Virus record (IMG/VR): IMGVR_UViG_3300013126_004149
Coordinates: 1 to 64,000 of that record
Strand: one strand, 5' to 3'
DNA from: a virus
DNA: 64,000 bases
The position numbers were made by a program, and so were the translations under genes. This document shows positions 7,215-50,952 of the stretch, one piece after another. Below the pieces are notes generated by a model. It made no database searches. It was not told where the DNA came from and saw nothing but the letters and a program-made list of their open reading frames with translations. Positions within the stretch are counted from its first letter, which is position 1, and the number at the start of each line of letters is the position of its first letter.

Positions 7215-8600
7215 TTATTTTGATTTACCAAATCCGGTAATTTTTCCATTCTTATCTCCTTTATCTTCTTCATCATCCCATCTGGTGTTAAAGAAGTTTT
7301 CGTGATCATTTACAATTTTAACATCTGAATCCATTGTTGCGAAAGGTCCTAATTGACCTGATCTAAATATACCACCAATCATATCACTATTTAAATATCC
7401 ATCCATAAAGAAACAGTTATTTAAATTAGATCCTTCTACTCTACAAGAGAGTATTTTAGTATTAATTAATTCGGTATGTTCTATAGTTGATTTTGATATT
7501 TGTGAATTTCTAACTTCACATCCTAGTAGAGTTGAGCTTTCAAATATACCGTTAAGATCACAATTTATAAACTCGTAGTTTTTAAGTGTTGATGAGGCTT
7601 TTATTTTAGCATCAACTATTTCTATAGTTTGTGTTAGAGTAACATAATTTATTATACATTCTTTTAAGTCTGTAGTCCCATCAATTAAATTATATAACTT
7701 TGGAAATATTTTATCATAATAAGATGATACAATATCATAATTACTACTTTGATCTATTTGTAATTGAATTGTTGGGTAATCAACTATAAAATTATCATAC
7801 TTTGAAAAATTATTAAATTGTTTAATGTTATTCTCCAAATAGTCCGCTAATTTATTAATATCTTCTGAATTAAATCCAACATCGATTGAGTTCCAAGTGT
7901 TTATGATAAATCTATCTAAGAAATAAATAAGTTGTCCTGGATTTTTTTCATAATCTTTACCACCAATATATCTATATTCTAATCTTTGACTTTTAACTTC
8001 ATTTGTAATATTTAAAAAGTTTATACCATAATATTTATCATTTGGAATTCTAATATTGTTTTTAACAACGCCAATTGGTATATTAAAAAAGTCATACTCT
8101 TTATATGGTATTATTTTTTTAATTGTTTTTGCATAAACATTATCTTTTCTAGATGGGAAATATCTATAAATTTCATCTTCATCTGTGTTTAATATTAGTT
8201 TTAATATATTTAAATCGTTTAAGTTTTTTTCTTCATCTTTAAAAGAAAGGTTAAAGTGTATGGAACATTTATCATTGGTATATCCGTACTTTTGTATAAA
8301 ATTTAGTATTTTTATAAAATAATACTTTGCATCAAAGTATTCAAGTGGTCCAGTTACTAGTTCTACTAGATTATTACCACCGGAAAGATCTGGTTCAATT
8401 TTAAAATTATCTTTATCAGGTGTAAAATCAGAATGATATTTTCTAAAACCCCAAACTTTAACTGGGTTTAATTCAATATTAAGCATTTCGAGAGTTTTAT
8501 AAAAAGAAAGATCTTTCATATAAAATTCAAATTCAAAACCTATTAGTGCATTTTTAAGTTTAGAAGATTGGTTTAAAAATTTATCAGAATATTTATTCAT
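7215..8600 (-). CDS. amidoligase-like enzyme with pentapeptide-like C-terminus
   Basis: 461 aa. The N-terminal part has GFEFEF (about residues 21-26), IEPDLSGGNNLVELVTGPL (about 68-86), CSIHFNLSF (about 112-120) and RLEYRYIGGKDYE (about 206-218). Paired acidic motifs, an E.vtgPl stretch and an HxN strand are what one sees in the glutamine-synthetase-like amidoligase family (COOH-NH2 ligases). The C-terminal ~130 residues form short repeats (ECNL-type: FINCDLNGIFESSTLLGCEV) resembling a right-handed beta-helix of pentapeptide type. If correct, it makes an amide bond using ATP; target unknown. AT motif upstream at 8603-8620. Confidence 0.6.
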   Translation of the reverse strand: MNKYSDKFLNQSSKLKNALIGFEFEFYMKDLSFYKTLEMLNIELNPVKVWGFRKYHSDFTPDKDNFKIEPDLSGGNNLVELVTGPLEYFDAKYYFIKILNFIQKYGYTNDKCSIHFNLSFKDEEKNLNDLNILKLILNTDEDEIYRYFPSRKDNVYAKTIKKIIPYKEYDFFNIPIGVVKNNIRIPNDKYYGINFLNITNEVKSQRLEYRYIGGKDYEKNPGQLIYFLDRFIINTWNSIDVGFNSEDINKLADYLENNIKQFNNFSKYDNFIVDYPTIQLQIDQSSNYDIVSSYYDKIFPKLYNLIDGTTDLKECIINYVTLTQTIEIVDAKIKASSTLKNYEFINCDLNGIFESSTLLGCEVRNSQISKSTIEHTELINTKILSCRVEGSNLNNCFFMDGYLNSDMIGGIFRSGQLGPFATMDSDVKIVNDHENFFNTRWDDEEDKGDKNGKITGFGKSK

Positions 8601-46642: not shown

Positions 46643-46672
46643 AAAAGAGGGTTATTTCTAACCCTCTTTTTT
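46641..46672. terminator. bidirectional terminator
   Basis: AAAAGAGGGTTA (46643-46654), loop TTTC, TAACCCTCTTTT (46659-46670), between the nuclease gene and the polymerase 3' end. Confidence 0.85.
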
Positions 46673-47879
46673 ATTTTCCAAATCCACTGAATATGTCCAT
46701 CACAATAGATAATCTCTCTGTTATCTCCGGCATTCCCAATGGTTCAATAATTGAGTTTATTGGGGATAAGATACTCTTAGCAAACTGGAGGTCATAATCA
46801 ATAAGAGGGGCGAACTCTATTGGATATGATCCCCTTATATAAGCAAAAATATCACCATTTGATTTATTCTTACAATAATAATATTTAATCTTTGTTCCAG
46901 ATTTAATCATTTCATACTTATCAGCATACTTTTTATTTGTATGTAAAAGATAATTATAAAGAGCTGCAGCCTTAACTGCAAAATGAGATCCACCCACAAA
47001 CTCAAGCGGTAATGTCTTATCATTAAGAACCTTATTCTCATAATTTGAACAAGATGATTGCATCGCTATATCATCAATATCAGCTAACTCAAACTCTTTT
47101 CTTAAATCTTTAACTAATTTAAGTAAATCTTTAATGTTAAATGTATCTGGATGTTCAAATAAATACCTAACAATTCCAACAATTTTCTCTCTAGCAAAAA
47201 GAGGAGTTGACGATCTAACTAATTCCACACCTTTAGGGAATAAATAGTTAAATCTATCAAATGGAATACCATCTTCATAAAGAATATGTTGAATATATTT
47301 CTTCTTAGCGATTGATATAATCGATTCAGATATCCTCTCTAACTCAAAATCCTCTTTATTCTCTACACCAAATCCAGCCGCATATTCCTCTAAACACTTT
47401 TTAAAATACCCACCATATCTAAAATGATCTATACCCTGTATATAATCTAACTCACTAGACCAATTCCATTGTATATCACATGTAAATACTCCAGAATCTA
47501 TTAATTTAATTAAATCCCAGTTTTTAACGAAATGACCATCTATTATTATCTCTTTATAATCCAACTTTAACAACTCCTTAAATTCATCTATGTTTTTTGC
47601 TATTCCTAAACATTTATCATTATCACAATTTATCTCATTATTTGTTAAAATAATAAAATTATTCTCTTTCCAGTCTAAATCATTAATTATTAAATCTCTC
47701 CAATTTGAATGATCCATGGCTGGTTTAAATGATACAAAAAGTGAATTATGAACTAATATATCATTAGCTATAAAAGTATGTGTCTCATCATCAACTTCCA
47801 CATCATATACATACTCATCATCAAAAAATCCAATTTGCTCACAAGACTCAATTTCCTCTATTATGTAATTTTTATTCAT
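46671..47879 (-). CDS. split-intein C-half + DNA polymerase C-terminal part
   Basis: 402 aa. Residues 1-45 are an intein C-half: DEYVYDVEVDDETHTFIAN (block F) and ILVHN at the splice point, with Ser46 as +1 residue. The extein SLFVSFKPA continues polymerase motif C right after the YADTDS of the N-piece. KKKYIQHILYEDG (about residues 205-217) and FAREKIVGIVRYLF belong to the palm-thumb region of gp43-like B-family polymerases. It ends DIFSGFGK, a plausible clamp-binding tail. It overlaps the nuclease gene by 8 nt. After protein trans-splicing the active site (DTDS) would be complete. Confidence 0.85.
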   Translation of the reverse strand: MNKNYIIEEIESCEQIGFFDDEYVYDVEVDDETHTFIANDILVHNSLFVSFKPAMDHSNWRDLIINDLDWKENNFIILTNNEINCDNDKCLGIAKNIDEFKELLKLDYKEIIIDGHFVKNWDLIKLIDSGVFTCDIQWNWSSELDYIQGIDHFRYGGYFKKCLEEYAAGFGVENKEDFELERISESIISIAKKKYIQHILYEDGIPFDRFNYLFPKGVELVRSSTPLFAREKIVGIVRYLFEHPDTFNIKDLLKLVKDLRKEFELADIDDIAMQSSCSNYENKVLNDKTLPLEFVGGSHFAVKAAALYNYLLHTNKKYADKYEMIKSGTKIKYYYCKNKSNGDIFAYIRGSYPIEFAPLIDYDLQFAKSILSPINSIIEPLGMPEITERLSIVMDIFSGFGK

Positions 47880-48981
47880 ATATTTCCTTTATTATTTTAT
47901 CAACCGTTATATCTATACCATCTCTATTTAAATCATCTTCCCAAATTATAATTAATTTTTTTAGTTTTGTTCTTAAAAAATCATTCTTAATTCTATCCTT
48001 TTCCCATATATCCTTTGCATTTAGACCACTTTCTAATGGAAATGGCATATCATCTGATTTATATTTTTTTGGATTAGCATGCCAAATATCTCCATTAAAC
48101 TCTATCCCTATATTTAATTCTCTTATGAAAAAATCTATTAGATAATATTTTTTATTTTCCTTATCATATGAGTACCACTCTTTATCCTTATAATAAATTC
48201 TATATGTTCCTTTATCTTGAATTCTAGATATCAATTCATCAAATAGTTTTATAGATAATTTTGAATAACCACTATTGAATAGTCTTTTTTTGCAAAAATC
48301 ATCATATATATTTTGACCGGCAAAATCGCCATGTTTTTCCATGAAATATTCAACAGTTGTTGTGTATTTTTGTCTATCGCAATAATCCATCCATTTTTTT
48401 AAACCCAATTCTTCTCCATGTCTATTTACTAAATTTTCAATAGTTACAGATCTTGATTTATTATATTCTTTAAATTCTTCTTTGGTCCAACCATATTTTT
48501 CTCTTTTATATTCAAATGTGTTTGTTAAAGCTTGTTTATCTCTATAAACTTTCCATTTTTTTGAACCTATTTCACTTCCCCATTTTTTAATTAGATTTTC
48601 TTCAGTTATAGCATACTTGTTTTTCATCCATATTAAAGCAGTTTCATGATCTATACCAAATGCGTATTCTGTAATATAATTCATCTGATTAAAAACCCTA
48701 GATTTATTCTTTTCAGAATACTCTGGATATTTTTCGGTTAAACAATCTTCACAAACATTTAAATAATAACACTTATCGACATTTTTAGAAGTTAAAAAAG
48801 ATTTACCCTTTGGTTGAATTTCTTTTGATTTAAAAGTAAATGTAGAATCATAATAATATATTATATCATTACAAATTCTACATTTTGGTTTATCTGAAAA
48901 ATATTGATTAAATATTTCTCTATAACTATCTTTACTTTTATTTTTATTAAAATATTCTATAAATTCTTTATTAGTTTTCAT
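47872..48981 (-). CDS. Vsr-like endonuclease inside the split polymerase intein
   Basis: 369 aa from ATG 48981 (a GTG lies 2 codons upstream). The N-terminal part has CRICNDI and VCEDC, a possible zinc site; the middle has repeats NLIKKWGSEIGSKKWKVY and NLVNRHGEELGLKKWMDY. Residues about 275-350 carry YYLIDFFIRELNIGIEFNG, IWHANP and LIIIWEDD, the EDxHD/Vsr-like nuclease fold, as in the gene at 5441. It lies exactly between the two intein halves, with its own promoter-like motif TTTTTATATATACTAA. This is the layout described for fractured genes, where the nuclease gene is free-standing between split-intein halves. Confidence 0.8.
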   Translation of the reverse strand: MKTNKEFIEYFNKNKSKDSYREIFNQYFSDKPKCRICNDIIYYYDSTFTFKSKEIQPKGKSFLTSKNVDKCYYLNVCEDCLTEKYPEYSEKNKSRVFNQMNYITEYAFGIDHETALIWMKNKYAITEENLIKKWGSEIGSKKWKVYRDKQALTNTFEYKREKYGWTKEEFKEYNKSRSVTIENLVNRHGEELGLKKWMDYCDRQKYTTTVEYFMEKHGDFAGQNIYDDFCKKRLFNSGYSKLSIKLFDELISRIQDKGTYRIYYKDKEWYSYDKENKKYYLIDFFIRELNIGIEFNGDIWHANPKKYKSDDMPFPLESGLNAKDIWEKDRIKNDFLRTKLKKLIIIWEDDLNRDGIDITVDKIIKEIYE

Positions 48982-49029
48982 ATACACAGATACTTTTATT
49001 AGTATATATAAAAACTAAAACTGTCCCTT

Positions 49030-49650
49030 TTAAAAAACTGATAGTATTTTATCTGTTTTTAAAACTTCCGAAGGTTTAACTTCAATTTTAACACCATCTC
49101 TAAATACTATCATTGAATGATCATTAGTTACTATAACTTCTTTACCTGACTTTGTTTTTAATCTCCATTTAGCTTTACTAACCTTATGTCTTATAATCCT
49201 TTTAACAGGTGCATAATATAAATTACCATCATCCGAATAGTTTAATATCCTATCAATAGTTAATACCGATTCGTGTCCTTTAAGTGTTTCTCCTGCGGAA
49301 CCATTTTTAATATTGTTATTATACCATTCTTCAATGGTTAATCTACCATTTTCGGTTTGTATAATTGATCCTGAAAAACAAGAATCCGTATCAGCATAGA
49401 TGCTCACAGGCTCAGTTTTATTAACTTGTGTTATGTTTTTGATGCACAAATTTTTATGTAATTCGTGATCTAAGTGCCATTGGTTATACCAATAGTCCTC
49501 ATTTACTTTATCCATTGTTTTAGTTAGGTCTCTTCCTTGGGCTGTTATTGTGCCGGCGACCCAATTATTAAATAGAATAAAGTATGGTGTTGCAAATGCT
49601 CCATAAGAGCCGTTAAGAACGCGGTTTTTCCTCCCCCCATGATTACTCAC
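49030..49650 (-). CDS. DNA polymerase middle part (motifs B-C) + split-intein N-half
   Basis: The frame opens at a GTG (49650), but polymerase similarity starts at VLNGSYGAFATPYF (motif B) and goes to IYADTDS (motif C, residues 84-90). Residue 91 starts an intein, CFSGSIIQT, with GKEVIVTNDHSMIVFRDG as block B, running to the stop (116 aa). Between the helical part of the fingers and this piece lies the 43-nt gap. Without the gap the sequence would read ALKLVLNGSYG, the exact K-x-x-x-N-x-x-Y-G motif B. Family: T4 gp43-like B polymerases, which copy the phage genome. Confidence 0.85.
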   Translation of the reverse strand: MSNHGGRKNRVLNGSYGAFATPYFILFNNWVAGTITAQGRDLTKTMDKVNEDYWYNQWHLDHELHKNLCIKNITQVNKTEPVSIYADTDSCFSGSIIQTENGRLTIEEWYNNNIKNGSAGETLKGHESVLTIDRILNYSDDGNLYYAPVKRIIRHKVSKAKWRLKTKSGKEVIVTNDHSMIVFRDGVKIEVKPSEVLKTDKILSVF

Positions 49651-49663
49651 AGGGGGAGTATCA
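49621..49663 (-). other. 43-nt gap between matched GTT codons in polymerase motif B
   Basis: On the - strand: AAG CTG GTT, then TGA opens a 43-nt segment, then GTT CTT AAC GGC resumes motif B. GTT stands both as last codon before and as first codon position of the resumed frame. The segment holds a 7-bp hairpin CTCCCCC/GGGGGAG (GC-rich in an AT-rich genome), and the perfect hairpin CAGCTT-TG-AAGCTG ends directly before the first GTT. The layout equals that of the T4 gene 60 bypass (matched codons, stop after take-off, hairpin in the gap). Confidence 0.8.
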
Positions 49664-49774
49664 AACCAGCTTCAAAGCTGTTTGGATGGCATTATAATAA
49701 TCTGCCTCCTTTTTCAGCTCCGAAGCTTTTATTCTTAATGACTCTATCTCTTTTAATTTTTCATCCTTAGTCAT
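49661..49774 (-). CDS. DNA polymerase fingers piece, 37 aa
   Basis: ATG at 49774 to TGA at 49661-49663. The product (MTKDEKLKEIESLRIKASEL, ending ADYYNAIQTALKLV) has the helical character of the fingers of B-family polymerases; Y-x-A-x-Q-x-A-x-K directly precedes motif B in this family. An in-frame stop lies 18 nt upstream of the ATG, so this is where the coding unit starts. No exonuclease/N-terminal half is present upstream; it must be elsewhere in the genome. Divided gp43 (43A/43B) is known in T4-like Aeromonas phages. Confidence 0.65.
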   Translation of the reverse strand: MTKDEKLKEIESLRIKASELKKEADYYNAIQTALKLV

Positions 49775-49851: not shown

Positions 49852-50952
49852 ATGATTAAGGAAAGTAAAGTTTTGGTTAAAATAAATATTAGAAATAAGA
49901 GTCATTATTTAAATTTAGGGTATTTAATATCTAACGAAATAGAAGTGAAAGTTGATGACTTACCAAATGGTTCTAAAATTAAAATAACTGCTATTTGTGA
50001 ATTATGTGGATCTGAAAATTATATACCATATTCCAAATATTTAATTAATAAAAATAGAAAAGATAAAGGATATTACTCTTGTTTTAGTTGCAAAAATCAT
50101 ATTAAAGAAAAAACATGTATGGAAAAGTGGGGAGTTAAATCATATTCAATGACTGATGAATTTAAATTATCTGAAAGTTTTAAATGGAAAGGAATTAAAA
50201 AAGGATCTGAAAAGGGTAAAAAAACTATGATGAGTAAATATGGTGTTGATTCATATTTCAAAACTGATGAAATTCGTGAAATGAATAGAAAGTGGATGTC
50301 TTCTGATGAATTTAAACAAAAATCTAAAAATACTTTAATTAATAAATATGGTGTTGATTCTTATTCAAAAACAGATGATTTTAAATATAAATTAGAATTT
50401 AAAATGCATGAAACAGTAGAAAAAATTAAAAATACATTTAAAAATAAATATGGTGATGAATATTTATCAAAAACAGAATATTGGAAAGAGATTTTTAAAT
50501 CTAAAGTAGAAAGTACTATTGAAAAGTGTAAAGAAACTTGTTTGAAAAAATATGGTGTTGATAATGTTAGTAAGGTTGAATTTATTAAAGATAGGATAAA
50601 AAATATAAAAGAAGTAAGTGGTATTATAATACCTGATTCTGAAATTGATGCCTGGTCTATGTATAAAAGAAATGTTAGAAGAATAACAAATAATAACAAA
50701 AAGAAACTTTATGAAGATTGGACAGGATATGATTATTATGATGATGAATATATCAAAGGATATTTATCTAACACACATACTCATAGATTTTATCCAACAA
50801 TTGATCATAAAATATCTGTTTATTATGGATTTAAAAATTCAATAGATCCCAGTATAATAGGATCTATCGATAATCTATGTATAACTAAGAGATTTATAAA
50901 TTCGACTAAATCAAAATTAACAGAAAGTGAGTTTAATTATAAAGAATCTTGA
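49852..50952 (+). CDS. HNH-type homing endonuclease with repeats
   Basis: 366 aa. The N-terminal part has two Cys pairs (ICELCGS and SCFSCKN), then five repeats of the CLKKYGVDNVSK / MSKYGVDSYFKTDE type (about residues 90-250). The C-terminal ~90 residues (WTGYDYYDDEYIKGY, YPTIDHKISVYYGF, DNLCITKRFINSTKS) hold the HNH core. Homologous to the protein at 37284-38018, with more repeats. It stands at the 5' side of the divided polymerase gene, where it may have caused the split. Its end overlaps the converging membrane-protein gene by 16 nt. Confidence 0.75.
   Translation: MIKESKVLVKINIRNKSHYLNLGYLISNEIEVKVDDLPNGSKIKITAICELCGSENYIPYSKYLINKNRKDKGYYSCFSCKNHIKEKTCMEKWGVKSYSMTDEFKLSESFKWKGIKKGSEKGKKTMMSKYGVDSYFKTDEIREMNRKWMSSDEFKQKSKNTLINKYGVDSYSKTDDFKYKLEFKMHETVEKIKNTFKNKYGDEYLSKTEYWKEIFKSKVESTIEKCKETCLKKYGVDNVSKVEFIKDRIKNIKEVSGIIIPDSEIDAWSMYKRNVRRITNNNKKKLYEDWTGYDYYDDEYIKGYLSNTHTHRFYPTIDHKISVYYGFKNSIDPSIIGSIDNLCITKRFINSTKSKLTESEFNYKES

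Follow-up and report, generated by a model that had tools for sequence, protein, structure and literature searches.

Our comparative analyses indicate that a 43-nt gap in the DNA polymerase gene of a virus, located in the 64,000-nt stretch of DNA analysed here (hereafter the window), is very probably a programmed translational bypassing element residing within a mobile homing-endonuclease cassette. Judged by comparison with related loci, the gap is an insertion that carries two conserved and covarying helices (H1 and H2) and has matched codons at most of its insertion sites; the polymerase is intact on either side of the gap, and the element is associated with a homing endonuclease and has spread between phages. 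A reading of the window sequence alone had presented the element as an isolated case; the element itself is real, but it is one member of a large family (28 polymerase loci). The inserts of this family are apparently small, structured and mobile, and ribosomes most likely jump over them.

The interrupted DNA polymerase gene of the window

The window forms part of a 70-kb virus record; among its kin are phage records of 460-740 kb and IMG/VR contigs of up to 597 kb. On the minus strand, ORF1 (MTKDEKLKEIESLRIKASELKKEADYYNAIQTALKLV, positions 49664-49774) comprises the first 37 codons of the gene for the C-terminal part (C-part) of the polymerase and has conserved homologues in kin both with and without the gap. 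It starts with an ATG at 49774, reads MTKDEK...IQTALKLV and closes with the take-off codon GTT (Val, 49664-49666), which is adjoined on its 3' side by the stop codon TGA (49663-49661). The non-coding gap (49621-49663) has no counterpart in 20 relatives and has counterparts in 27 others. Directly after a second GTT (49620-49618), the landing codon, LNGSYGAFATPYF... picks up in a different frame, decoding restarting at CTT 49617. The resulting ORF2 (49381-49617) extends from polymerase motif B to motif C (LNGSYGAF...SIYADTDS), matches the Pfam family DNA_pol_B and is under purifying selection in kin. Because 43 nt separate the two GTTs, the skipped length has to be 46 nt (46 mod 3 = 1), and joining the two GTTs yields K-x3-N-x2-Y-G, which is motif B of family B DNA polymerases. 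The take-off at GTT-TGA, the gap, the landing GTT, the change of frame and the restoration of motif B (KLV-LNGSYG) by removal of 46 nt had all been proposed in the sequence-only reading, and each was confirmed at these positions.

The gap is an insertion in a polymerase under selection

Searches with the 80-residue stretch that separates motifs B and C recovered about 75 loci, a number that includes distant and repeated ones. Gaps are present in 28 distinct polymerase loci (the window included), and motif B is unbroken in 20 distinct close relatives. The segment is an insertion, as the sequence-only reading had supposed, since it is missing from these 20 relatives, whose motif B is continuous. 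Five insertion points are found within motif B of the polymerase (viz. LA^LK in 5 loci, AL^KL in 13, LV^LN in the window, GS^YG in 1 and SY^GA in 8). The gaps are 36-48 nt long, landing triplet included, and in the 27 loci tabulated their lengths cover all three residues modulo 3; hence, the whole segment must be removed or skipped, and the kin give no sign that the gap is translated. A simple frameshift or readthrough was also considered and is ruled out in 12 of the 27 loci, where the gap contains a stop codon in the frame of ORF2. Re-initiation is excluded in about ten loci, as their first ATG, GTG or TTG in ORF2 comes only after motif B, 87-114 nt downstream of the gap. Sequencing error is ruled out because 28 distinct loci carry gaps and 20 relatives read through.

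The C-part is a separate gene in all 20 records searched, gapped or not, and in most of them the N-terminal part (N-part) is located elsewhere. No second polymerase C-part was found in these 20 records, and the possibility, raised earlier, that another intact polymerase gene accompanies a dead one finds no support there. The dN/dS ratio of ORF2 between gapped pairs is mostly 0.03-0.13, pairs interrupted by an intein excepted, and by this comparison the gapped polymerases are under strong purifying selection. The insertion, the purifying selection and the single C-part support the original bypass reading; bypassing itself we infer from such comparisons.

Take-off and landing codons

The first two bases of the take-off and landing codons match in 20/20 polymerase gaps outside the Tyr-Gly site (viz. 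the LA, AL, LV and GS sites), the pairs observed being GCT/GCT, GCT/GCA, CTT/CTA, CTG/CTA, GTT/GTT and TCT/TCA. The chance of such a two-base match within the gaps is about 3.5%; the 20 loci are related, but four different sites obey the rule. Take-off and landing codons are identical in the window (GTT/GTT), and most matched pairs elsewhere agree in just two of their three bases. At the SY^GA site, a TAT or TAC take-off codon faces a landing triplet of AAC, AGC, GAC, CAA or TAA, which is a mismatch; the eight loci concerned (L024, L027, L029, L031, L034, L081, L088 and L099) keep the remaining architecture. Two-out-of-three pairing or a landing position set by the hairpin are possible explanations of this mismatch. 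The stop codon, which adjoins the take-off codon in the window, is placed one codon later in most relatives and is missing after take-off in L021, L031 and terminases of the L268 type. Gapped and ungapped kin have similar ORF1 peptides, in which a nascent-peptide signal of the T4 style (KKYK-type) is not recognisable.

Two conserved helices, H1 and H2

The helix H1 of the window consists of 13 bp formed between a 5' arm within ORF1 (AGCTTCGGAGCTG, 49715-49727, minus strand) and a 3' arm (CAGCTTTGAAGCT, 49668-49680, minus strand) that is flush with the take-off codon. It has a z-score of -5.7, none of 300 synonymous recodings being as good, and its kin display covariation. A hairpin CAGCTT-TG-AAGCTG had earlier been proposed for this position; that pairing is wrong because its loop would be only 2 nt, and the segment 49680-49668 is instead the 3' arm of the long-range helix H1, whose partner is 49727-49715. 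The second hairpin of the sequence-only reading, GC-rich and inside the gap, is real: H2 (49631-49658, minus strand) is a 12-bp hairpin, CTCCCCCTGTGA-GTAA-TCATGGGGGGAG, in which 49658-49647 pairs with 49642-49631 around a GTAA loop, and it occurs in kin in 26 distinct versions with compensating pairs.

H2 is present in every gap (28 loci) with a length of 9-17 bp. Its base is mostly CCCCC...GGGGG, the pairs above vary with compensation, and some loops are GNRA or UUCG. The foot of H2 usually lies 5-6 nt past the take-off codon, and 4-10 nt (median 6) separate its 3' end from the landing codon. We looked for a stem-loop enclosing the take-off codon and found none, and the start of ORF2 showed no excess structure that would represent a 3' stem-loop.

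H1 arises from pairing of the 3' end of ORF1 with a stretch farther upstream in the same ORF. In 27/28 loci its 3' arm stops 0-3 nt short of the gap, and the position of this arm shifts with that of the gap. The mean z-score of H1 against synonymous recodings is -4.5, with some SY^GA loci individually weak, and in ungapped relatives, tested at all five sites, it is about 0 (n=19). In a gap-free alignment of 18 loci, six pairs of H1 have changed on both sides, with 0/500 shuffles as good, and this signal collapses when the alignment is slid by one base. At the SY^GA and GS^YG sites the 3' arm of H1 pairs with a far-upstream segment (e.g., GAGTCATTAA); an initial indication from 60 nt of sequence that the Tyr-Gly class lacks H1 was overturned once the full ORF1 was folded in. 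The sole locus without H1 is L027 (SY^GA, near 8019-8067), which has a 17-bp H2 that extends back as far as the take-off codon and has no endonuclease nearby.

Elements of the same design in terminase and glycosyltransferase-like genes

A pattern scan of viral contigs for a stop codon followed by a C5/G5 hairpin, filtered without any condition on codons, returned the polymerase and also the large terminase genes of other phages, the latter identified by Pfam Terminase_3C and PHROGs. These terminases are interrupted inside the Walker A loop (viz. GGTSAG^KT, GGTSSS^KT and GGTSA^GKT) by elements of 36-44 nt (L185, 4577-5800; also L246, L268, L319, L414, L586, L595, L639 and L641), and most terminase homologues found by homology are continuous across Walker A. 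A further 44-nt element with GGT as both take-off and landing codon is located in a glycosyltransferase-like gene (L568, 1312-1355), a distant homologue of which reads on at the insertion point; a possible endonuclease remnant is found just upstream of this element. The first two codon bases match in all terminase and glycosyltransferase-like gaps with no codon condition applied, the terminase pairs being GGT/GGA, GGG/GGA, GGA/GGA, TCG/TCA, TCG/TCT, TCT/TCT, GCT/GCA and GCC/GCA. H1 in this set again ends 0-3 nt before the gap, with a mean z-score of -3.8 (17 loci including the glycosyltransferase-like one, several of them singly weak) versus -0.6 in an ungapped comparison (n=30).

Applied to bacterial genomes as a negative control, the same scan yielded 49 hairpins, none of them marking a convincing coding gap, and a protein search of bacterial genomes found no relative. 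Within about 2.7 Mb of phages of this kind, the polymerase was the only interrupted gene found, the other sites being terminator-like. In the phage collection no isolated phage bearing the element was found, its kin there being Flavobacterium phage terminases only.

Association with homing endonucleases and apparent mobility

A divergent homing endonuclease gene encoding 366 aa (49852-50952, plus strand) is located beside the gap in the window. Such genes are found only with gaps, and we propose this one as the mobile partner of the element. Its product has an HNH-like C-terminus with zinc-finger-like cysteines, and the alignment of its homologues exhibits an invariant D-H-K...N-L-C-I-T-K...N-S-x-K signature. 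It matches PHROGs homing endonuclease families and has no HNH match in Pfam; a fold search with its AlphaFold model (pLDDT 81, pTM 0.36) matches an HNH nicking enzyme weakly. An endonuclease homologue or remnant is present within 1.3 kb upstream in 19/28 gapped versus 0/20 ungapped loci (Fisher 6e-7, the relatedness of the loci being left uncorrected). This link between endonuclease and gap is an addition to what had been read from the window sequence.

The presence or absence of the insert switches at least 15 times on the C-part tree, and its clustering is no greater than that of shuffled labels. The empty locus L013, which lacks an endonuclease, and the filled locus L024 share 88-100% identity past the insert, and their similarity drops before it; L015 and L031 encode C-part proteins that are identical past the insert, yet their inserts differ in sequence and site. 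Both patterns are as expected from homing with a short conversion tract. Decayed endonuclease copies are found beside intact gaps in L021, L025, L097 and L029, as would be expected if the endonuclease gene decays once it has invaded.

Other kinds of nuclease gene may occur in comparable positions. In L176 (Chryseobacterium phage MA9V-2, 1079-3610), an annotated fragment of DNA polymerase B has a TnpB-family gene immediately upstream, which suggests that the same split is exploited by another kind of nuclease gene. In L035 and L092, ORFs of about 254 aa that open with YYIYAYLDP or DYYVYVYMNP end approximately 180 nt upstream of the gap or motif in the C-part, and these are possibly GIY-YIG endonucleases placed where other loci have the HNH-like one.

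Proposed mechanism and alternative explanations

Under bypassing, the ribosome would translate ORF1 to the take-off codon (GTT in the window) and there meet the stop codon and H2 just ahead. The peptidyl-tRNA would release, the ribosome would slide across the gap without decoding, and the tRNA would re-pair with a similar codon (GTT) a few nucleotides downstream of H2, where decoding would resume to give KLV-LNGSYG. At take-off the 3' arm of H1 would be inside the ribosome, and H1 may refold behind the ribosome and push it forward as a motor; H2, refolding behind the ribosome in turn, may act as a spacer that fixes the landing distance. A filled site would be protected from cutting by the endonuclease. 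The sliding, the roles of H1 and H2 and this protection are what we infer from the architecture. Bypassing accounts for the free length of the gap and for codon matching with no other common 3' boundary. It also explains why a stop codon and a hairpin follow closely on take-off and why selection acts on a helix able to reform only behind the ribosome. The observations against it are the mismatch at SY^GA, matches that mostly extend to two bases, the frequent displacement or occasional loss of the stop codon, the absence of H1 from L027 with its statistical weakness in a few single loci, and the lack of a recognisable nascent-peptide signal of the T4 type.

The main rival to bypassing is the splicing of a tiny intron of about 40 nt, cut from the mRNA by a ribozyme or by a nuclease and ligase guided by H1 and H2, which we consider unlikely. 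Such an intron would be equally indifferent to gap length and frame, its junctions would be structured, the association with a homing endonuclease is typical of introns, and the SY^GA site without matched codons would be explained. Group I and group II introns were rejected, there being no Rfam match and no ribozyme core; more generally, no Rfam intron family matches, 40 nt is below the size of any known self-splicing core, and the inserts share no common 3' boundary, their last triplet instead tracking the take-off codon (CTA, GCA/GCT, GTT, TCA and GGA/GGT). It is similarly improbable that the inserts form a new class of structured phage mini-introns of about 40 nt with H1 and H2 as the recognition structure; were this the case, the Tyr-Gly site would need no special explanation.

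Far less probable is that ORF1 simply stops and ORF2 re-initiates, which would add another break to the polymerase. In favour of this, all relatives already have a split farther upstream in this protein, phage polymerases made as separate parts can be functional (PMC2988022), and the window has an in-frame GTG at 49650. Against two polypeptides stand the first ORF2 start codons, which in the approximately ten loci described above lie beyond motif B, and the cuts themselves, which would break the motif B helix or the Walker A loop of terminase at several different residues; the matched codons and H1 would also be left without a reason. A dead gene or sequencing error is barely credible, for although the sequences are metagenomic only and the window record is a 70-kb fragment without the N-part, this explanation is already refuted for the family by dozens of contigs from different samples, by compensatory changes in H1 and H2, by ORF2 dN/dS values of mostly 0.03-0.13 and by the absence of a second C-part copy.

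Comparison with known systems and significance

The bypassing proposed here most resembles that of T4 gene 60, which is the only phage translational bypassing observed so far according to a 2020 review (PMC7576135). In both cases, a gap (about 50 nt in gene 60/mobA of the topoisomerase gene 39/60) lies near the start of the downstream part of a split gene, a stop codon follows take-off (directly in the window), the codons are matched and a 5' stem-loop is present, and a homing endonuclease lies alongside, which is mobA, of HNH type, in T4 and a putative HNH enzyme here (PMC5009743, PMC11194080, PMC2988022). The 5' stem-loop of gene 60 is thought to act as a motor, and gaps of less than 56 nt are crossed at constant processivity (PMC5009743, PMC11194080), a range that includes the gap lengths found here. 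Reviews regard the T4 homing endonuclease and bypass sequence as one mobile cassette (PMC5009743, PMC4592705, PMC2988022). Unlike gene 60, the present family occurs in other genes (PolB, terminase and glycosyltransferase-like) and numbers dozens of members spread over several sites; its H1 directly adjoins the take-off codon, and H2 lies past that codon rather than containing it; no 3' stem-loop was detected, there is no recognisable KKYK-type peptide signal, and the Tyr-Gly site is mismatched. The inserts thus apparently represent a large and differently built variant of programmed bypassing and not a plain copy of the T4 system.

The byps of Magnusiomyces capitatus mitochondria comprise 81 inserts that are largely independent of mRNA context and involve an unused codon (PMC5009743, PMC4592705). 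They are likewise numerous, short, located in conserved genes, in part imperfectly matched in their codons and thought to be mobile (PMC5009743, PMC4592705); they differ in being mitochondrial, whereas the phage family has one insert per scanned genome, strong H1 and H2 helices and a homing endonuclease. Mobile group I introns of phage polymerase genes share the endonuclease-linked insertion at conserved catalytic motifs and differ from the present inserts, which are about 40 nt long and have no ribozyme core.

No report of bypassing in a polymerase was found in the open-access literature searched. The inserts hit catalytic motifs of two essential phage genes (polymerase and terminase) as well as a third gene, and the polymerase element of the window belongs to a giant phage. 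Gene finders will call such essential genes truncated. The dozens of natural variants, with silent changes that preserve helices in coding regions, constitute a natural mutagenesis experiment bearing on what take-off and landing need (viz. codon match, stop codon, hairpin spacing and 5' helix), and the proposal that bypass sequences are mobile parasites travelling with homing endonucleases becomes testable.

A further interruption of the window polymerase

At motif C (YADTDS^C), the window polymerase also contains an intein (46671-49380, minus strand), the N and C halves of which are on separate ORFs. The ORF of 371 aa between these halves is probably a free-standing endonuclease. The polymerase of the window would hence require a split gene, a hop and protein trans-splicing.
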